DNA of 64,000 nucleotides from Hespellia sp. (GTDB lineage: Bacteria; Bacillota; Clostridia; Lachnospirales; Lachnospiraceae). Position 1 is the stretch's first letter, and each line of letters opens with the position of its first letter. This document shows, piece by piece, positions 48,430 to 59,700 of the stretch. The notes below the pieces were generated by a model. It was not told the origin of the DNA. It was given only the letters and a program-made list of their open reading frames with translations, and made no database searches. The translations under genes and the position numbers were made by a program. Location of the stretch: positions 1-64,000 of the forward strand of contig JAAVXR010000073.1 in the NCBI GenBank assembly GCA_022790755.1. Reading direction: 5' to 3'.

Positions 48430-49542
48430 CTAGAACATTCTACGAATTGTGATGATATTTGTATATGTGGCACTTGAAATACCAATCCCATGTGCCTCAT
48501 CAATTGCATTCACAATGGTTCCATCTCCCATATACAGACCTACATGGCCATCATAACACATGATGTCACCCGGCATTGCATTCTCATAAGATACTTCATA
48601 GCCTGCACCTCGCATCTCTCCAGATGTTCTCGGAAGGTAGATTCCGAAATTCTGGTATACCGACTGTACAAAACCAGAACAATCTGCCCCGTCTGTCAGA
48701 CTCGTACCTCCCCATACATATGGATTCCCAATAAACTGACATGCAAAATCTATAATTGCCTGTCCACTCTCCACTTGCTCTACAGATACCTGAGCCTGTG
48801 CCGCCGCTTCCTGTATCGCTGCCTCCCGCGCCTGCGCTTCTGCTTCCTCAGCCTGCCTCTGCGCCTCTTCTGCAGCCAGTCTTGCTTCCTCTTCTTCTCT
48901 TGACTCAGCATATGTGAAGTCTGATTGGACTGTTATATACTTTCCAGAAACCCAGCCGGCAATGTCTCCAACTTGCACCGGATACCATCCATCTACGGGG
49001 TCCCCTGTAATCTCATACTGTTCATCCATCTCAATCTGAGTCAGAATATCTGCGTCTGTATTCTGCCCATTTCTCACATTTAAAACATACGCCGTCACTG
49101 TCGCTGTTTTCTTACTTGCCTGATATGCATATTCTTTTGCTGCACCTCCGGTGTACAACAAGTCTGTTAATACATACCCTGTCACATTTCCCGATTGAAT
49201 TTTGGTCCAGATACCTTCTGTTCCTATTACGGTAGCTGCCCCATCCTTATATAATTTTCCTACCCAATCGCTGAATTCGTTTGCCTCCGCGTGAACATAT
49301 AAATATTCGGATACATTTGCAAACGCTATATTTGAATACTCCTCCTTCTCTGTTGGTACTAAATACAATTCTATGGAATGTTCTCTGCCGGATAGATAAC
49401 ATTCACTCAGCACTGACTCGATTCCCGCAACTGGTAATATCCCTGTATCCTGGGCATTTACTACTAGCGCTCTCCCCGGAACCATGATCGCACTTGCTAA
49501 CGCAGAAACAATAATTTTCTTTCTAATACATTCTGATTTCAT
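48430..49542 (-). CDS. Secreted NlpC/P60 (C40) peptidoglycan endopeptidase with SH3 domains
   Basis: Encodes 370 residues. Signal peptide ~1-30; an N-terminal unknown part contains an SH3-like region; a second SH3 (VRNGQNTDADILTQIEMDEQ) follows; then an Ala/Glu coiled coil (~205-250) and a C40 domain with catalytic Cys in DGADCSGFVQSVY and His in DGHVGLYMG. It cuts D-gamma-Glu-mDAP bonds in stem peptides. The promoter and repeats upstream suggest WalR-like control. Confidence 0.9.
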   Translation of the reverse strand: MKSECIRKKIIVSALASAIMVPGRALVVNAQDTGILPVAGIESVLSECYLSGREHSIELYLVPTEKEEYSNIAFANVSEYLYVHAEANEFSDWVGKLYKDGAATVIGTEGIWTKIQSGNVTGYVLTDLLYTGGAAKEYAYQASKKTATVTAYVLNVRNGQNTDADILTQIEMDEQYEITGDPVDGWYPVQVGDIAGWVSGKYITVQSDFTYAESREEEEARLAAEEAQRQAEEAEAQAREAAIQEAAAQAQVSVEQVESGQAIIDFACQFIGNPYVWGGTSLTDGADCSGFVQSVYQNFGIYLPRTSGEMRGAGYEVSYENAMPGDIMCYDGHVGLYMGDGTIVNAIDEAHGIGISSATYTNIITIRRMF

Positions 49543-49590
49543 CTTAAAACCTCCTTACTGTTTTTTTATCTTTTGTAGGAAGTTTTAAAT

Positions 49591-49958: not shown

Positions 49959-50354
49959 TTGCCAACTATAAAATACAGCCGACAACGCGAATCCATCAAA
50001 AATTATTTGACAACCACCAAAACTCATCCAACTGCGGATAGTGTTTACCTTCATACCAAAGAAGTGTTTCCAAATATCAGTCTGGGAACTGTATATCGTA
50101 ATTTGAATCTTTTGGCTGATATGGGGGAAATCACAAAGATCGCAACACCGGATGGCGGAGATCGTTTTGACGGCCGTACAGAACCACACAATCATTTTTT
50201 CTGTACTTCCTGTAAACGTATCCTGGATTTGGATATGGATATGCGTCATATGGATCAGCTTAACCAACTTGCACAACAGAATTTTAATGGTGCTATTCAC
50301 TACAGCACCACTCTATTTTATGGGACTTGCAGTAAATGCAAGGAAAACTCTTAA
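49959..50354 (+). CDS. perR: PerR/Fur-family metal-dependent regulator
   Basis: Encodes 131 residues from TTG at 49959, with AAGGAGG 6 bp upstream; the upstream frame to 49812 is not translated. The winged helix contains HPTADSVYLHTKEVFPNISL and GTVYRNLNLLADMG, the metal region EPHNHFFCTSC and C-terminal CSKC. The C-x-x-C pairs bind structural zinc; His/Asp residues sense peroxide or iron. The adjacent rubrerythrin gene supports PerR over Fur. Confidence 0.88.
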   Translation: MPTIKYSRQRESIKNYLTTTKTHPTADSVYLHTKEVFPNISLGTVYRNLNLLADMGEITKIATPDGGDRFDGRTEPHNHFFCTSCKRILDLDMDMRHMDQLNQLAQQNFNGAIHYSTTLFYGTCSKCKENS

Positions 50355-50360
50355 TAAGAA

Positions 50361-50384
50361 TTTAATGCATATATATGCATTAAA
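50361..50384. promoter_or_regulatory. Perfect 24-bp palindrome between perR and rubrerythrin
   Basis: TTTAATGCATAT (50361-50372) is followed directly by its reverse complement (50373-50384). No T-run follows. It could be an operator or an mRNA hairpin in a perR-rubrerythrin transcript. Confidence 0.5.
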
Positions 50385-50441
50385 ATAAATTGCCAATTAT
50401 GGCACACAATCAATCAATTTTCAGAAAAGGAGAACAAAATT

Positions 50442-50984
50442 ATGAAAAAATTCGTATGTACCGTATGTGGTTATGTTCATGAAGGAGATGCAGCGCCGGC
50501 AGAATGTCCAATTTGTAAGGCATCCGCAGACAAGTTTAAAGAGCAGACTGGTGGCAGAGAGTGGGCTGCTGAACACGTTGTGGGCGTAGCAAAGGGCGTT
50601 AGCGAAGATATCGTTGCAGACCTGAGAGCTAATTTCGAAGGCGAGTGTTCCGAAGTTGGTATGTATCTTGCAATGGCAAGAGTTGCTCATAGAGAAGGAT
50701 ATCCTGAAATCGGTCTTTACTGGGAAAAAGCTGCTTTTGAAGAAGCAGAACATGCTGCTAAATTTGCAGAATTGTTAGGTGAAGTTGTAACAGACAGCAC
50801 CAAGAAGAATCTTGAGATGAGAGTTGACGCTGAAAACGGCGCTACTGCTGGTAAATTTGATCTTGCAAAACGTGCAAAAGCTGCAAACTTGGATGCAATC
50901 CACGATACCGTTCATGAGATGGCTCGTGATGAGGCAAGACACGGAAAAGCATTCGAGGGACTTCTGAAAAGATATTTCGGCTAA
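50442..50984 (+). CDS. Reverse rubrerythrin (NADH peroxidase component)
   Basis: Encodes 180 residues. A rubredoxin-type Fe site at the N-terminus ([17 protein letters not shown]) precedes a four-helix diiron domain with E-x-x-H motifs ([22 protein letters not shown]). Domain order is the reverse of classical rubrerythrin, as in clostridial Rbr that reduces H2O2 in anaerobes. It lies directly downstream of perR. Confidence 0.93.
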
Positions 50985-51011
50985 AAAGAAGACAAATTCT
51001 TTCTTGTATTC

Positions 51012-51042
51012 AGACCTGAAGGGAGACAAGCCCTTCAGGTCT
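51012..51042 (+). terminator. Terminator after rubrerythrin gene
   Basis: A 12-bp perfect stem, AGACCTGAAGGG (51012-51023)/CCCTTCAGGTCT (51031-51042), is followed by GATTCTTTTA. Serves the converging GIY-YIG gene as well. Confidence 0.85.
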
Positions 51043-51049
51043 GATTCTT

Positions 51050-51295
51050 TTACTCTTGTTTTGAAATCAACGCCAGTTTTTGCTCTCTACTCAGGTGCTT
51101 AAGCGCATATTCCCTCTTCATTGCCTCTTCCTTTGTAGAAAAGCTTTCGTAATATACTAATTTTACTGGCCTTCGGTGTTTTGTATACTTCGCACCTTTT
51201 CCATCGTTGTGCGCCTTCACTCGTCTTTCCAGATCATTGGTCCAACCTGTATATAATGTACCATCACAACATTTTAAAATATATGTATAATTCAT
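51050..51295 (-). CDS. GIY-YIG nuclease-family protein, UvrC-N-like
   Basis: Encodes 81 residues from the ATG at 51295, preceded by AGAGGAGAAAG; the frame above it is not coding. The motifs are YTYILKCCDGTLYTGWTNDL with conserved Arg (RRVKAHN), KGAKYTKHRRP, and Glu in FSTKEEAMKREYALK. These stand-alone YhbQ/YazA-like proteins are of uncertain function, possibly DNA repair or recombination. Confidence 0.88.
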   Translation of the reverse strand: MNYTYILKCCDGTLYTGWTNDLERRVKAHNDGKGAKYTKHRRPVKLVYYESFSTKEEAMKREYALKHLSREQKLALISKQE

Positions 51296-51463
51296 CTTTC
51301 TCCTCTTGCCGGAAAGAAATTCCAGACGACTCGTTTCCCAGACTCTATTCTCTGCATATTGTATCATTATTTTATCCACACTGCAAAATAAACCTGCATA
51401 CGTCCACAAAGGATAAAACACCATGCATAAAAGTTGTGCGGGCGCAATTTGTGAAGCCAATAT

Positions 51464-51542
51464 GAGGGACTGGCCCTCAAAATTTTAGGCCATAAAAAGG
51501 GACTGTCCCTCGCATTGTCACGCAAATAAGAGGGACTGCCCC
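51464..51542. repeat. Three copies of an AGGGACTG palindromic repeat
   Basis: GAGGGACTGGCCCTC (51464-51478), AGGGACTGTCCCT (51498-51510) and AGGGACTGCCCC (51531-51542) lie in the gap between two minus-strand genes. A similar TGTCCC...GGGACA hairpin is at about 46550-46568. They resemble short intergenic palindromic (REP-like) repeats. Confidence 0.6.
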
Positions 51543-51547
51543 AGGAT

Positions 51548-52300
51548 TTACTCCATATAATCCATCGGGTTTACCGATTCTCCATCTTTACGAACTTCAA
51601 AATAAAGATTTGTTCCTTCCAAGCTGTAATATTTTGTTGGTTGGCTGAGATATCCGATCAGATCGCCTTTTGCCAGATACTGGCCTTCTGAGATCGGAAG
51701 TTCTTGTAATTGACCATAAGTTGCTTCATAACCATTTCCCATATCGAGAGTTACTGTGATTCCCGTCTGAGCTAACTGGTCTATGCTTTTTACCGTACCT
51801 GCAGCCGCTGCATAAATCGGCTCGGCCTCCTCACCCGAAATAATCAAAGCAGGATTATACCGATATTGATCCAGCGTCGTAAAATACGTTGTCTGATCCA
51901 TACTATAATTAATCAGAATATTGCCGCTGGCTGGCCAATCCAAAAGGCTGTCCTCTGTAAAAGCAGCCGAGGATGCCGAATTACCGGAAGTACTAACATT
52001 CTCATTCGTTGTTTCTGCAGGAGTTGATGTATCATCTGCACTGTCTTCCTCCTCCACTTCTGGCTCAGGTTCTTCTTTTTCAATTTCAGGCAGCACGATA
52101 TCTTCTGTATTTGCCTGCTCACTTTCTTCATTCAGGGCACGTTCCATCTCTTCGGATTTTGCAAGCTGCTCTTCCAGATTTTTCTGGTAATTTTTAAATG
52201 TATATACTCCCATGATTGCAATCACGGCCGCAACGCAGATTACAGCTCCAACTGTAGCACCCTTTCCTTTCATTTGAAATGGACTTTCCTTTTTATTCAT
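51548..52300 (-). CDS. spoIIQ: SpoIIQ-like forespore protein with degenerate LytM (M23) domain
   Basis: Encodes 250 residues from the ATG at 52300 (AGAGGTGATGA upstream). One membrane helix (~15-37) is followed by an acidic linker ~50-110 and an M23 fold ~120-250. The usual zinc ligands are replaced: YNPALI where HxxxD is expected, and NLYFEV instead of HLHFEV. In Bacillus SpoIIQ pairs with SpoIIIAH to form the channel between forespore and mother cell and also lacks full catalytic residues. Placement after spoIID and a sigma-F-like promoter support the name. Confidence 0.88.
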   Translation of the reverse strand: MNKKESPFQMKGKGATVGAVICVAAVIAIMGVYTFKNYQKNLEEQLAKSEEMERALNEESEQANTEDIVLPEIEKEEPEPEVEEEDSADDTSTPAETTNENVSTSGNSASSAAFTEDSLLDWPASGNILINYSMDQTTYFTTLDQYRYNPALIISGEEAEPIYAAAAGTVKSIDQLAQTGITVTLDMGNGYEATYGQLQELPISEGQYLAKGDLIGYLSQPTKYYSLEGTNLYFEVRKDGESVNPMDYME

Positions 52301-52318
52301 ATTCATCACCTCTGGTCA

Positions 52319-52348
52319 TATTTTTACCAGAAAGTAATGGTGTTATTC
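52319..52348 (-). promoter_or_regulatory. Putative sigma-F promoter of spoIIQ
   Basis: On the minus strand, GAATA (complement of 52344-52348), 15 bp, GGTAAAAATA (complement of 52319-52328). The -10 fits GGNNANAHTR exactly, and the spacing is right for sigma-F. The -35 part lies in the end of spoIID. Confidence 0.65.
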
Positions 52349-53317
52349 TAGTTTTGTAAATATTTCTCCGGCATCTTCGAGGATTGTTCCTTCAAAAAAA
52401 TATGCAAGGATATCGCTGTAATGATTTCCTTTTTCTGCCATTTTATTAGCGGACCACTGGCTCATTCCAAGACCATGTCCATTGCCAGTCGCGGTCAATA
52501 CCAGCTCATCGTCCTCCCCATCTTTGATCGAAAATGCACTGGAAGCCAGCGCCAGTGACTGTCGGAATTGCTCTCCACTGAGTATGGTATTACGTATCCG
52601 CAATTTTGTCACATACCCTGCGGAATCCACTTCTTTAATCTCGAAATCTGCAAAGGTAAGTGGCCTCTTTGCTGTCTCTTCCTCGACTGCCACAAAGTCT
52701 GCCTGACATTTTTCCTGAATTTCTTGATACGGCAAGCGATATATATGCAACTCCTCTTCCGCTTCTTTGTCCTCCGGACATTCCTTCATGGTCAAATATG
52801 GATATTCCTGTGTTCCCCATACCTCAGACGCATTTCTTGTGGTTCCATTACTCGACTGATGAAATGGCACCATCGCATAGCTACCGTTAAACATCAGCAC
52901 TTCCCCCGCCGTATCCCGAATCGCCTTCTGAAATTTATCATAGTATTCTGCATAATTGATTCCCCATTTTTTTTCCAGCTCTTCCTTGCTCCAGTATTCC
53001 ATGCTCACTTCATTTCCCTTTGTCTGTTCCAACTCCTGGTACAACGATGTTCGCAAAATGACAGCTTGAGCTTTTAATGCTTCCAATTCTATATCCGCCG
53101 CAATCTCCTTTGCCAACACCCCCACAAAATATTCTTCCCACAATACCTGCTGTTGACGCTCCCCATTATTAAAATAAATATATGCCGCTTTTACGTTTCC
53201 GGCCGATGTTATTTTTGAGCCATTCATAAAAACAGTCACTACATAAGGAAGTAACACCAAAATACACAAAAAAGACAGTAAGGATTTCACCTTCTGTCTG
53301 AAAATATATTTTTCCAT
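52343..53317 (-). CDS. spoIID: Stage II sporulation protein D (SpoIID)
   Basis: Encodes 324 residues. A membrane anchor (~9-31) is followed by the SpoIID domain with LWEEYFVGVLAKEIAADIEL and the GHGLGMSQWSANKMAEKG signature. It is a lytic transglycosylase that thins septal peptidoglycan during engulfment, with SpoIIP and SpoIIM. Its ribosome site GGAGGG lies in a hairpin stem (see 53320-53370). Confidence 0.94.
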   Translation of the reverse strand: MEKYIFRQKVKSLLSFLCILVLLPYVVTVFMNGSKITSAGNVKAAYIYFNNGERQQQVLWEEYFVGVLAKEIAADIELEALKAQAVILRTSLYQELEQTKGNEVSMEYWSKEELEKKWGINYAEYYDKFQKAIRDTAGEVLMFNGSYAMVPFHQSSNGTTRNASEVWGTQEYPYLTMKECPEDKEAEEELHIYRLPYQEIQEKCQADFVAVEEETAKRPLTFADFEIKEVDSAGYVTKLRIRNTILSGEQFRQSLALASSAFSIKDGEDDELVLTATGNGHGLGMSQWSANKMAEKGNHYSDILAYFFEGTILEDAGEIFTKLE

Positions 53318-53319
53318 AA

Positions 53320-53370
53320 AAAGAATAACCCTCCATATTGCAGTATATGAAGGGTTATTCTTTCCTATTC
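53320..53370 (-). promoter_or_regulatory. Terminator-like hairpin hiding the spoIID ribosome site, with embedded sigma-E-like promoter
   Basis: On the minus strand a 19-nt arm (53363-53345) pairs with 53338-53320 with one mismatch around a 6-nt loop, ending in T-rich TTCTTTTT just before the spoIID ATG. The 3' arm holds the ribosome site GGAGGG (53334-53329). Inside the 5' part, GAATAGG (53370-53364), 14 bp, CATATACT (53349-53342) fits sigma-E, with a start near 53335. Such transcripts would lack the 5' arm and expose the ribosome site. Confidence 0.62.
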
Positions 53371-54222
53371 GGGTTTGTTATCTGTAGACGAGGTATCGTA
53401 TCCTTCCTCACCTGTGAAATCCTGGTATACATATGGAATGTTTTCCGTCTGCGCTTCCTGCTCATTTACATGATCCACTTTTTGATCGGATGTATTCTCT
53501 GGCTCATCATGTCTCACAAAGTTATTTTCATCATGATCTAACGGAAGAATAGGCGGTATGATTTCCGGTGTTTTTGGCAGATCCGGCTCCATTCCTGCAT
53601 TATAACTCTTATTGCGATACACCAACAGGCAAATCGCTTCGTACAACGGAACGGTGACACTGAGAATCGAATGCACGATCGCTGTCGTTTCCGTCGTAAA
53701 TTTGTGGAAAATCTGATAGTCCACCAATACACATAGCACTTTATAAACTGCTGTATATGCCAACGCCAGCAAACAGAATACTACAATGAGAAAGATCAGC
53801 ATAACAAGCGCAAAACCGTACCCTCCTCCGGCCGTTCCGATGGCAATCACTGTACCCATTCCAATCCCCCAGAGGACAGCGCCGAGTACACCAAATACAA
53901 GATTCTTCATAATCGGCAATACAATCATCCAGATTCCCGGACTGCGAACAGTACGTTTTTGAAACTTAATATCCCCGGATAATTCCCCTTGCAGGTAATA
54001 TCTTGCAAAAGGAATAAACGCCAGCCATGGATATTCCATGCCTTCTCTCTGCGCCATGCGATGCATCGCAAACGCTTTGAGCAGATAATTTACCAGCTTT
54101 ACCACAAGTACGATCAAAATCGCTGCCAGATATATGAGAAAAATTGTCATTATTATGCTTTCCTCCGATGGTCCGACATACTCATACGCATACTCTCGAA
54201 AATAATCTTCATTATATCCCAT
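53365..54222 (-). CDS. Polytopic membrane protein with acidic tail, unknown function
   Basis: Encodes 285 residues with five to six hydrophobic segments (first IIMTIFLIYLAAILIVLVVK, ~22-42) containing HRMAQREGMEYPWLAFIPFA, then a ~75-residue acidic cytoplasmic tail rich in Glu, Asp and Asn. The W-L-x-F-I-P-x-A-x-x-Y signature occurs in clostridial membrane proteins of unknown role. GGAGAACGAT precedes the ATG. The stop is followed at once by the spoIID hairpin. Confidence 0.75.
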   Translation of the reverse strand: MGYNEDYFREYAYEYVGPSEESIIMTIFLIYLAAILIVLVVKLVNYLLKAFAMHRMAQREGMEYPWLAFIPFARYYLQGELSGDIKFQKRTVRSPGIWMIVLPIMKNLVFGVLGAVLWGIGMGTVIAIGTAGGGYGFALVMLIFLIVVFCLLALAYTAVYKVLCVLVDYQIFHKFTTETTAIVHSILSVTVPLYEAICLLVYRNKSYNAGMEPDLPKTPEIIPPILPLDHDENNFVRHDEPENTSDQKVDHVNEQEAQTENIPYVYQDFTGEEGYDTSSTDNKPE

Positions 54223-54264
54223 ATCGTTCTCCTTTGCTATTCTGTAAGCAACACTCCGTATCCA

Positions 54265-56730
54265 TTAGTCTTCTGGCGATATTGTAATTTTTTCAAGATG
54301 CCAGATATCTCTGACATACTCTTCTATTGTCCGGTCTGACGTAAATTTCCCACTGCTCGCGGTATTCAAAAGTGCCATTCTTGCCCATCTTTTACGGTCA
54401 CGGTATGTCTCCTCAACCTTTTTCTGCGCCTCCGCATAGGCTCGGAAATCTTTCAATATAAAATACATGTCCGCGCGTGGTGTCACATGCCGGTTCAGGA
54501 GAGAATTATACAAATTTTTGTACATGCCGCGATCTCCGTTTGCATAGGTTCCGTCGATCAGTTGATCAACAACCCGTTTCAGCTCCCAATCATTGATATA
54601 AATGTCCGTCGGATTGTAACCACCATTATTCTCATAGTTGATGACTTCTTCAGAACTCATACCAAAAATAAATGCATTCTCAATTCCCACTTCTTCCACA
54701 ATCTCTACGTTTGCGCCATCCATGGTTCCAAGAGTTGGTGCTCCATTCAACATAAATTTCATGTTGCTGGTTCCGGAAGCTTCCTTGGACGCCGTAGAAA
54801 TCTGTTCGCTGACATCTGCTGCCGCAAAAATCAGCTCAGCATTGGATACACGATAATCCTCTATAAATACGACCTTCAGCTTTCCATTGATGCTGCGGTC
54901 ATTGTTCACCACATCCGCCACAGAATTGATCAGTTTGATGGTCTCTTTCGCCCGCAGATAACCAGCTGCTGCTTTTGCACCAAAAATAAACGTTCTCGGA
55001 TAAAACGCCATTTCCGGATGTTCTTTGATCTGATTGTACAGATACATAACATGAAGTATATTCAAGAATTGCCGTTTATACTCATGCAAGCGTTTTACCT
55101 GTACGTCAAAAATGGATCTCGGATCTACTTCAATTCCATTGTGTTCCAGAATATATTTTGCAAGCCGCTCTTTATTTTTATACTTGATCTCCATAAATTC
55201 TTCACACGCAGTTTCATCGTCTACAAACGGCTTCAAACGGCTGATCTGAGATAAATCTGTAATCCAACCGTCTCCAATCTTAGCACTCACCCAATCAGCC
55301 AGACGAGGATTCCCGTGAAGCAAGAAACGGCGCTGTGTAATTCCGTTCGTTTTGTTATTAAATTTCTCAGGCATCATCTGATAGAAATCTTTCAATTCCT
55401 GATTCTTTAAAATATTTGTGTGCAGCCTTGCTACACCATTCACAGAAAATCCAGCTACAATCGCCAAATGTGCCATTTTTACCTGTCCATCCATCAAAAT
55501 AGCCATTTTACGGACTTTGTTCTCGTCTCCTGGATACAATCTCCGAATCTCTGCAATAAAACGACGATCAATTTCCTGGACAATCTGATAAATACGAGGC
55601 AGAAGACGGGAAAACAGATCAATCGGCCATTTTTCCAGCGCTTCCGACATAATCGTATGATTCGTGTATGCACACGTTTTTGTTGTGACGTCCCACGCAT
55701 CTTCCCAACTCAGTCCTTCTTCGTCGATCAAAAGACGCATCAGTTCCGCAACTGCAACGGTAGGATGTGTATCATTCATTTGGATGACTACTTTTTCATA
55801 AAGCTTACGCAGGTCGCCATCCGTCTCTCTTTTATATTTTGCAATCAATGTCTGAACACTGGCTGAAATAAAGAAATATTGCTGTTTCAGACGAAGCTCT
55901 TTTCCAGCGTAATGATTATCATTTGGATACAAGACTTCTACAATATTTTTCGCCAGATTTTCTTGTTCTACAGCTTTGTGATAATCTCCCCTGTCAAAAG
56001 AATCCAGTTTAAAGTCAACAATCGCTTTTGCATCCCAGATACGCAGCGTATTTACCATATGATTGCCGTATCCGATGATTGGCATATCATATGGAATAGC
56101 CAGAACGGATTCATAATTTTCCTGGATAAAGTTCTCTTTTCCAGTCTCCGGATCTCTCTCGAAGCGAATATTTCCGCCAAAACGAACTTCTTTCGTGTAT
56201 TCTTCCCGGCGAATTTCAAAGGGATTTCCATCTTTCAGCCAGTCATCCGGTGTTTCAACCTGATAGCCATTTTCGATCTTTTGTTTGAACATCCCATATT
56301 TATACCGTATCCCACATCCATAAGCCGGATATCCTAACGTCGTCAATGAATCCAAAAAGCAGGATGCCAGTCGTCCAAGACCACCGTTACCGAGCGCTGG
56401 ATCTGGCTCTTCATCTTCCACGACATTCATGTCGATTCCCAGCTCTTCCAGAGCCTCTTTTACCGCTTTATATGCAGTCAAATTGATCAGATTATTGCCT
56501 AGAGCACGCCCCATCAAAAATTCCATGGACATATAGTAAACGGTTTTCACGCCACTTTTAAATTCCTTCTGTGTTGCAACCCAATCATCCATGATCGCAT
56601 CTTTCACAGCATATGATACCGCCTGAAAGATCTGCTGTGTTGTCGCCTCATCCAGATTCTTTCGAAACAGTCTTCTCACATTATCTTGTACTTCTTGTTT
56701 AAATGTTTCCTTTTCAAATATCTTGTTCAC
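54265..56730 (-). CDS. glgP: Glycogen/starch/alpha-glucan phosphorylase
   Basis: Encodes 821 residues from GTG at 56730, overlapping the ileS stop by 1 bp with AGAGAGG upstream. The PLP-binding site EASGTSNMKFMLNG (Lys in the NMKF part), active-site stretches VAVAELMRLLIDEEGLSWED and GDRGMYKNLYNSLLN are present; length is normal. It releases glucose-1-phosphate from alpha-1,4-glucans. No other glycogen gene is adjacent; the link to ileS is positional only. Confidence 0.94.
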   Translation of the reverse strand: MNKIFEKETFKQEVQDNVRRLFRKNLDEATTQQIFQAVSYAVKDAIMDDWVATQKEFKSGVKTVYYMSMEFLMGRALGNNLINLTAYKAVKEALEELGIDMNVVEDEEPDPALGNGGLGRLASCFLDSLTTLGYPAYGCGIRYKYGMFKQKIENGYQVETPDDWLKDGNPFEIRREEYTKEVRFGGNIRFERDPETGKENFIQENYESVLAIPYDMPIIGYGNHMVNTLRIWDAKAIVDFKLDSFDRGDYHKAVEQENLAKNIVEVLYPNDNHYAGKELRLKQQYFFISASVQTLIAKYKRETDGDLRKLYEKVVIQMNDTHPTVAVAELMRLLIDEEGLSWEDAWDVTTKTCAYTNHTIMSEALEKWPIDLFSRLLPRIYQIVQEIDRRFIAEIRRLYPGDENKVRKMAILMDGQVKMAHLAIVAGFSVNGVARLHTNILKNQELKDFYQMMPEKFNNKTNGITQRRFLLHGNPRLADWVSAKIGDGWITDLSQISRLKPFVDDETACEEFMEIKYKNKERLAKYILEHNGIEVDPRSIFDVQVKRLHEYKRQFLNILHVMYLYNQIKEHPEMAFYPRTFIFGAKAAAGYLRAKETIKLINSVADVVNNDRSINGKLKVVFIEDYRVSNAELIFAAADVSEQISTASKEASGTSNMKFMLNGAPTLGTMDGANVEIVEEVGIENAFIFGMSSEEVINYENNGGYNPTDIYINDWELKRVVDQLIDGTYANGDRGMYKNLYNSLLNRHVTPRADMYFILKDFRAYAEAQKKVEETYRDRKRWARMALLNTASSGKFTSDRTIEEYVRDIWHLEKITISPED

Positions 56731-59700
56731 TATTTCACCTCTCTCGCTACACCCATTGTAACCTTTTCACCATTAATATTCCATTCTTTTACGTATCCTT
56801 CTGGAGTAACCTTTTGCAGGCGATTAGCAAGCACCTCACTTCCGATCAGGCTTTGCTGCTTTTCAAAAATATTTTCTGCTTTCTGACTTCCCTGATAGGT
56901 AACGCAGATTTTATCGGTCACTTCAAATCCAGCCTCTTTTCTCATCGTCTGAATCTTACTGATCAATTCTCTGACAAATCCTTCTTCCAGCAATTCTTCC
57001 GTCAGATTGGTATCTAAAACTAGCGTAATTCCATTATCATCTTCTGAAACATACCCTTCCATTTGAGCAGTATCAATCAAAAGGTCTTCTTTAAACAATG
57101 TGATTTCCTGGCCATTTACATCCAGTTTCAGCGCTCCAGTCTCGTTCACTTCATCCATTGCCGCATTGCCATCCACAGCATTCAATGCCGCCTTAATACC
57201 GCCCAAAAGCTTCCCATACTTTGGTCCCACCGTCTTCAGTTGCGGTTTAAACGTATAGGATGTGAAATCACGGACATCTTCTGTAAACGTTACCTTCTTT
57301 ACGTTTAACTCTTCCAATACAATCTGTTGATAAAAATCTGGCAGTGAAAACGCTGCTTTTATAAACATCTGGCCAATTGGCTGACGATTTTTAATATTTG
57401 CCGTATTTCTGCATGCACGACCCATAACAACCAATTTCAATACGTTTTCCATGTTAGCTTCCAGCTCTTTGTCAATATAGCTTTCCTCAACCTCAGGATA
57501 TTTACACAGATGAATGCTTTCCGGTGCAGACGCATCCAGCCCTCTTACCAGATTCTGGTAAATCTGCTCCGTCATGAATGGAATCATCGGAGCCGCCAAC
57601 TTGGAAACCGTTACAAGAGCCGTGTACAACGTCATATATGCGTTGATCTTGTCCTGCTCCATCCCTTTGGCCCAAAAGCGCTCTCGGCTTCTTCTAACAT
57701 ACCAGTTACTCATATCATCCACAAAGTCCTGCAATGCTCTGGCAGTTTCTGGGATTTTGTAATCATTCAAAGACTCATCCACCGTCTTTACCAATGTATT
57801 CAGTTTGGACAGCAACCATTTATCCATGACGGATAATTTCTCATATTCCAGCGTATATTTCGTCGCATCAAATGCATCAATGTTTGCATAAAGCACAAAA
57901 AACGCATACGTATTCCAAAGTGTGCCCATAAATTTGCGTTGTCCTTCCACCACCGCTTTTCCATGGAAACGGTTAGGCAGCCACGGTGCGGAATTGCTGT
58001 AGAAATACCAACGGATTGCATCTGCACCATACTTCTCCAGCGCATCAAACGGATCGACTGCATTTCCTTTGGATTTGCTCATCTTCTGTCCATTTTCATC
58101 CTGCACATGCCCCAATACAATGACATTCTTATAAGGAGACTTATTAAAAATCAAGGTAGATATTGCAAGCAGCGAATAGAACCAACCACGCGTCTGATCC
58201 ACGGCTTCCGAAATAAAATCTGCCGGAAACTGCTGCTCAAATAGAGCCTGATTTTCAAACGGATAATGATGCTGTGCAAAAGGCATCGAACCAGAATCAA
58301 ACCAACAGTCAATCACTTCCGGAACCCGATGCATTTCTTTCCCACATTTCGGACAATGAATGGTCACGTCGTCGATATAGGGACGATGCAGCTCGATATC
58401 TTCCGGACAATTATCAGACATAGACTTTAATTCTTCAATGCTTCCGATGGAATGCTGATGTCCGCATTCACATTCCCAGATGTTTAGAGGCGTTCCCCAA
58501 TATCTGTTACGGCTAATTCCCCAATCCTGTACATTTTCAAGCCAGTCCCCAAACCGACCTTTTCCGATATTTTCCGGAATCCAGTGAATCGTGTTATTAT
58601 TCGCAATCAGATCATCCTTCACTTCCGTCATTTTAACGAACCAGGATTCCCGTGCATAATAGATCAGCGGGGTATCACATCTCCAACAATGTGGATAACT
58701 ATGCTCAAATTTGGGAGCGTCAAACAGCATTTCTCTGGCTTCCAGATCTTTGAGTACTTCCGGGTCTGCTTTCTTGACGAATAATCCTGCAAATGGTGTG
58801 GACTGCGCCATATTCCCTTTGTCATCTACAAGCTGAACAAACGGCATGTCGTATTTCCGGCAGACATTCGCATCATCCTCACCAAACGCCGGCGCAATAT
58901 GCACCACTCCAGTACCGTCTGTCAAGGTGACATAGTTGTCGCAGGTGATATAAAATGCTTTTTTATTCTGTCCCTTGATACCGTCCGCCGCACACTGATA
59001 CAACGGCTCATATTCTTTGTACTCTAAGTCTTTTCCAACATACGTTTCCAAGACCTCATAAGCAGCATTTCCATCCGTCGCCAAAGGCCCTAGAACCGTA
59101 TCCAGAAGCGCCTCAGCCATATAATAGGTATATCCGTCTATACATTTTACTTTCGCATAAGTTTCCTTTGGATTGACACAAAGACCTAAGTTGGACGGCA
59201 GCGTCCATGGAGTCGTGGTCCACGCCAGAATATACGCGTCCTCCCCTTTTGCTTTGAATCTTACAATCGCGGAACGTTCTTTGATATCCTTATACCCCTG
59301 TGCAACCTCCTGCGCAGAAAGTGGTGTTCCACATCTTGGGCAATATGGTACAATCTTAAATCCTTTATACAGCAGGTCCTTTTCCCAGATTTGCTTCAGC
59401 GCCCACCATTCCGACTCGATAAAGTCGTTGTCATAAGTGACATAAGGATGGTCCATATCCGCCCAGAATCCAACGGTGCCAGAAAAGTCTTCCCACATTC
59501 CCTTATATTTCCAGACACTCTCCTTACACTTATCAATAAAGGGCTCCAGACCATATTCCTCAATCTGTTCCTTCCCATCCAAACCAAGTGCTCTCTCCAC
59601 TTCCAGCTCAACTGGAAGACCATGCGTATCCCAACCCGCTTTGCGCGGAACCCGATATCCCTTCATCGTGCGATATCGCGGAATCATATCTTTGATGACA

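Follow-up and report, generated by a model that had tools for sequence, protein, structure and literature searches.

A Shine-Dalgarno-sealing hairpin with a built-in sporulation-type promoter upstream of spoIID: a probable read-through insulator with counterparts before other spore genes of Clostridia

Background

In phage T4, early read-through RNA occludes the translation start of gene e (lysozyme), and likewise those of soc, 49 and I-TevI, and the late promoter lies in the DNA of the structure's 5' strand (PMC3014915). For sigG of Bacillus subtilis, a hairpin of 20 or more pairs has been proposed to block translation of read-through RNA from spoIIG; RNA started at the sigG promoter is, in that proposal, unable to fold this way (PMC5942855).

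The arrangement described here lies upstream of spoIID in a 64,000-nucleotide stretch of DNA from Hespellia sp. (Lachnospiraceae), hereafter the window, and shares features with both systems. As at T4 gene e, the Shine-Dalgarno (SD) sequence is hidden in the long RNA, where it is paired in the predicted fold, and a promoter for a late sigma factor lies in the 5' strand; RNA from this promoter would lack that strand and be translated, judging from the letters and spacing at 22 spoIID loci and a predicted start. Unlike the phage gene, the present case belongs to a developmental programme, the hairpin has a U-run at its end in most cases, the anti-SD is placed in the spacer between the -35 and -10 elements, and many unrelated genes of one regulatory network are involved. 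As at sigG, a sporulation gene has a large SD hairpin that would exist only in read-through RNA and a sporulation promoter that bypasses it; unlike sigG, a single Bacillus gene, the design stands before spoIID, spoIVA, spoIIQ and more, in Clostridia and mostly with a U-run. In the transposase genes of IS10 and IS50, read-through RNA from outside hides the start and the element's own promoter starts inside; these are mobile elements without a developmental sigma factor, whereas the genes here are sporulation genes. Single precedents are known in T4 gene e and the sigG proposal, and recurrence across sporulation genes is apparently unreported, since we found no report of it in the open-access literature.

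The hairpin upstream of spoIID

The protein encoded downstream of the hairpin is SpoIID (324 residues; gene at positions 52343-53317, ATG 53317-53315; all features of this locus are on the minus strand). The gap between its ATG and the stop codon of a preceding gene for 285 residues (53365-54222), the presumed source of read-through RNA, is 47 nt and is filled by one hairpin (53364-53319), defined by folding and covariation, in which the 5' arm (53364-53345) and the 3' arm (53338-53319) enclose a 6-nt loop (53344-53339). The RNA reads GAAAGAAUAACCCUUCAUAU-ACUGCA-AUAUGGAGGGUUAUUCUUUU, and its predicted minimum free energy of -25.8 kcal/mol compares with a mean of -7.3 for shuffled sequences (z of -7.5; 0 of 200 shuffles as good). 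The stem proposed in the earlier note is upheld as a hairpin, with 20 uninterrupted pairs rather than 19. The SD of spoIID, GGAGGG (53334-53329), lies entirely within the 3' arm and is sealed in the predicted fold, as that note had held. Between the SD and the ATG runs a U-rich stretch, TTATTCTTTTT (53318-53328), T-rich also in relatives and a possible terminator tail. The 285-residue protein has no Pfam or NCBIfam family match; it is probably a membrane protein, and its gene separates glgP from spoIID, two genes that adjoin each other in many relatives.

A sigma-E-type promoter, GAATAGG-N14-CATATACT, can be read within the hairpin, again as first proposed. The -35 element GAATAGG (53370-53364) shares letters with the TAG stop codon (53367-53365) of the upstream gene; the -10 element CATATACT (53349-53342) begins with five letters in the 5' arm and continues into the loop; and the 14-nt spacer (53350-53363) encodes the anti-SD, AACCCTT, together with the A-rich stem base. 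The promoter string by itself is weak evidence, as GAATA-N16-CATANNNT occurs once in the window with 0.25 matches expected; what makes the promoter convincing is its conservation. The general sigma-E consensus served for comparison, and its -35 and -10 letters with a spacing of 13-15 nt are found at the spoIID loci; sigma-E would be the factor acting here. In Clostridioides difficile, spoIID is under sigma-E control (PMC6221140). RNA had been expected to begin in the loop; a start 6-8 nt after the -10 element is instead predicted at about 53337-53335, at the top of the 3' arm.

Conservation and covariation at spoIID

A search of 200 genomes of the family, almost all from different genera, gave about 90 readable spoIID loci, of which 22, mostly one per genus of Lachnospiraceae, have the same anatomy upstream of the gene. 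In the shared layout, a -35 element like GAATAAA is followed after 14 nt by CATAnnnT, with the anti-SD in the spacer and CATA in the 5' arm or loop; the 3' arm contains TATGG(G)AGGG, which is usually followed by a U-run and then the ATG. The distance of 14 nt from -35 to CATA is kept in most of the 22 loci. The nearest named relatives with this anatomy are records of Mediterraneibacter and Eubacterium sp., and most spoIID loci of distant named taxa (Bacilli, other Clostridia) are without this form of the hairpin. In one close relative (locus L003, genome G039), a different 10-pair hairpin, TGGTGTACTG..CAGTACACCA, stands upstream of spoIID just before an unsealed SD.

The stems also covary. In an alignment of 13 spoIID loci, picked for having the stem so that pair percentages are biased, 7 of 15 pairs are changed on both sides; double-changed cells number 29, compared with 10.9 in shuffles (0 of 500 as high), in a statistic that ignores kinship. 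Pairing in this alignment falls by half when the partner is displaced by one column, and when arms were swapped among 15 spoIID loci the native pairing was reached in 0 of 20,000 trials. The CATA/TATG pairs are invariant, as expected because CATA belongs to the -10 element.

A second hairpin at spoIIQ

The next gene after spoIID on the minus strand encodes a SpoIIQ-like M23 peptidase (51548-52309), and its SD, GAGGTG, is likewise sealed by a hairpin (52304-52339), here without a U-run. A sigma-F-type promoter reads GAATA-N15-GGTAAAAATA (-35 at 52348-52344, -10 at 52328-52319), with the anti-SD encoded in its spacer. For the 53-nt region, the predicted fold has -14.3 kcal/mol (z of -4.1) with GAGGTG sealed, and in relatives 16 of 17 such regions fold with z of -3.5 or lower. 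Where transcription of spoIID runs on into spoIIQ, this hairpin may prevent SpoIIQ from appearing in the mother cell.

Recurrence before other spore genes

A covariance model built from the 13 spoIID loci includes the promoter letters, and its matches therefore lean to sporulation promoters. At E <= 0.05 it has matches in 119 of 299 genomes of the family (about 15 expected by chance), and at E <= 0.001 there are roughly 80 matches, compared with about 0.3 expected. Beyond spoIID, the matches within the family lie upstream of spoIVA and of genes for a TIGR04086 membrane protein, SpoIIM, SpoVAD, CspBA/CspC-like, CwlD, YlbJ, CotS-family, BofA-like, ClpP/TepA-like and asparagine synthetase-like proteins, the TepA and asparagine synthetase labels being our own presumptive reading. 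Before spoVAD and the tepA-like gene, the promoters can be read as being of sigma-G type (GTATA or GAATA, N18, CATACTA). Outside the family, the model matches upstream of genes for SpoIVA, SpoIIID (two), SpoIIP (two), SpoVB, CwlD, YunB (two), YqfC and YlmC/YmxH. A scan of genome contigs with a single protein gave no match. In the sampled genome itself only spoIID scores strongly. The same genome has a ferredoxin-like gene with a terminator-like SD hairpin without CATA (L093, G000:C9:7914-7966; model E of 1.7). At another match (L129:297-1100, G122:C109) the hairpin-bearing gene encodes only the carboxy-terminal half of SpoIVA (profile positions 242-492), and that genome yielded no full-length spoIVA.

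The spoIVA gene is unrelated to spoIID, and its loci were fetched by protein similarity, independently of the covariance model. A strict SD-sealing stem is present in 29 of 48 spoIVA loci, and in almost all of these CATA falls within the 5' arm or the loop. The spoIVA gene of the window's organism failed the strict stem test; a CCCCC/GGGGG pairing with a longer loop is visible there.

A survey of 723 gene starts, taken regardless of function from 800 kb of one genome (G036) and from the window, points the same way. The top three uninterrupted SD hairpins are those of the spoIID, CspC-like and TepA-like genes, each of which contains a sporulation-type promoter, and the strongest scores belong to spore genes only. 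An initial 2x2 comparison that set a strict promoter pattern against loose RNAfold sealing gave no significant association (p = 0.14 and 0.25), its counts being dominated by loose folds and doubtful gene starts; the uninterrupted-stem criterion set spore genes apart where loose sealing had not. Weak hairpins prove little, since at the loose threshold they are seen at 3.7% of starts and still at 1.3% with shuffled sequence upstream of the SD. In the window, the SD of an SH3/NlpC-P60 wall-hydrolase-like gene (48430-49542) falls within an AT-rich stem, TTTAAAACTTCCT..AGGAGGTTTTAAG (49542-49590, minus strand), with no evident sporulation promoter.

On balance, we lean towards the view that in Clostridia, most densely in Lachnospiraceae, genes controlled by sporulation sigma factors share a self-unlocking promoter whose spacer or adjoining 5' arm encodes the gene's own anti-SD.

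Read-through and promoter-started RNA

For spoIID, it is likely that the hairpin is a read-through insulator that is bypassed by its own built-in sporulation promoter and is often combined with a terminator. Read-through RNA from the upstream gene would contain both arms, and the anti-SD in the 5' arm would pair with GGAGGG and bar ribosomes; some of this RNA probably terminates at the U-run past the stem. With the -10 element in the 5' arm and the start past that arm, RNA made by sigma-E polymerase would begin at or just before the SD and be translated. The spacer between -35 and -10 is free to vary and can thus encode the anti-SD. The same design may operate before other genes with promoters of sigma-F, sigma-E and sigma-G types, spoIIQ included.

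Predicted energies are consistent with two such states. If promoter-started RNA is assumed to begin about 6 nt after the -10 element, opening the SD costs on average 14.0 kcal/mol in read-through RNA and 2.0 kcal/mol in promoter-started RNA over 21 loci. At the present locus the predicted cost drops from 16.7 to about 6.7 kcal/mol, so the proposal that GGAGGG is freed is borne out in direction, with some pairing left, predicted to be with the U-run. Opening energies were preferred because this weak U-run pairing inflated the base-pair probabilities of promoter-started RNA. The architecture and two-state logic of the earlier note are thus supported by conservation across genera, covarying stems, the spacing of 14 nt and the folding of the two RNAs. 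A read-through insulator also predicts a co-directional upstream gene and a shorter gap. Over spoIID and spoIVA together, the upstream gene is co-directional at 44 of 46 loci with the hairpin and at 75 of 106 without it (p = 0.0004), and the median gap is 71 nt with the hairpin versus 128 nt without.

The reason first offered for the device, protection from early SpoIID as a lytic enzyme, does not generalize. The same device precedes the non-lytic spoIVA, spoVAD, spoIIID, TIGR04086 and yunB genes, most carriers are not lytic, and SpoIID itself depends on SpoIIP, as its substrate is glycan strands already denuded by that enzyme (PMC6221140). We therefore rejected lysis as the general rationale.

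Could the hairpin be no more than an intrinsic terminator of the upstream gene, pressed by genome compaction into overlap with the spoIID promoter and SD, so that sealing is a by-product? The T fraction before the ATG is 84% at hairpin loci versus 25% in ordinary genes, which points to some termination of read-through RNA at the hairpin as well, and the gaps to the upstream gene are short. The focal hairpin, which has a U-run and few G-C pairs, escaped a simple terminator scan because its U-run pairs with the A-rich stem base; from the U-run, termination there is plausible. Termination is not the whole story, however, because the spoIIQ SD is sealed without a U-run and because one spoIID locus (L005) retains its SD hairpin although a canonical terminator, AAAAGGGG-CATT-CCCCTTTTT, stands just upstream. 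Moreover, the stem includes the SD without exception, the layout repeats at unrelated spore genes, and the upstream gene varies (the 285-residue gene here, glgP in others), which makes a terminator alone an unlikely account. A ribosome can repress a terminator placed directly behind a stop codon (PMC4824070), a setting in which a translational lock would be useful.

It is less probable still, and in our view quite improbable, that regulation is not involved and that a C-rich spacer simply belongs to the sigma-E motif of these bacteria, its pairing with the SD being coincidental. CATA and the -35 element are indeed strongly conserved and many spacers are C-rich; the spacer letters nevertheless follow the SD from gene to gene, with CCCTT/GAGGG at spoIID, CCCCTT/AAGGGG at spoIVA, CACCTC/GAGGTG at tepA and ATCAC/GTGAT at spoIIQ, which has another promoter type, and the covariation and arm-swap results also argue against coincidence. 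The least credible reading of all is a leader that senses a ligand or temperature and frees the SD in response. Although SD-sealing hairpins are common in riboswitches and thermometers, an Rfam search of window positions 50000-57000 gave 0 matches above the family gathering thresholds, the 47 nt between the genes are too few to accommodate a sensor, the loop shows no conservation, and the hairpin contains sporulation-type promoters with a constant spacing.

Implications

If read-through insulation by a self-bypassed hairpin is general, many spore genes would be insulated from vegetative read-through, which would account for the silence of spore genes that sit close behind vegetative ones with no long intergenic region between them. 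In the pair formed by spoIID (sigma-E) and the following spoIIQ (sigma-F), products of the mother cell and forespore would be kept apart, explaining how adjacent genes for two compartments avoid cross-expression. The signature, complementarity between promoter spacer and SD, may serve to predict genes under sporulation control in uncultured gut Clostridia, and a mechanism known from T4 and proposed for sigG would become testable as a general rule.

A minority of the covariance-model matches lie upstream of housekeeping genes, for example dapF and enolase. At these two loci (L128 and L144) the hairpin is accompanied by sporulation-like promoter letters; they are possibly false positives, or they may point to spore-specific expression of housekeeping genes.
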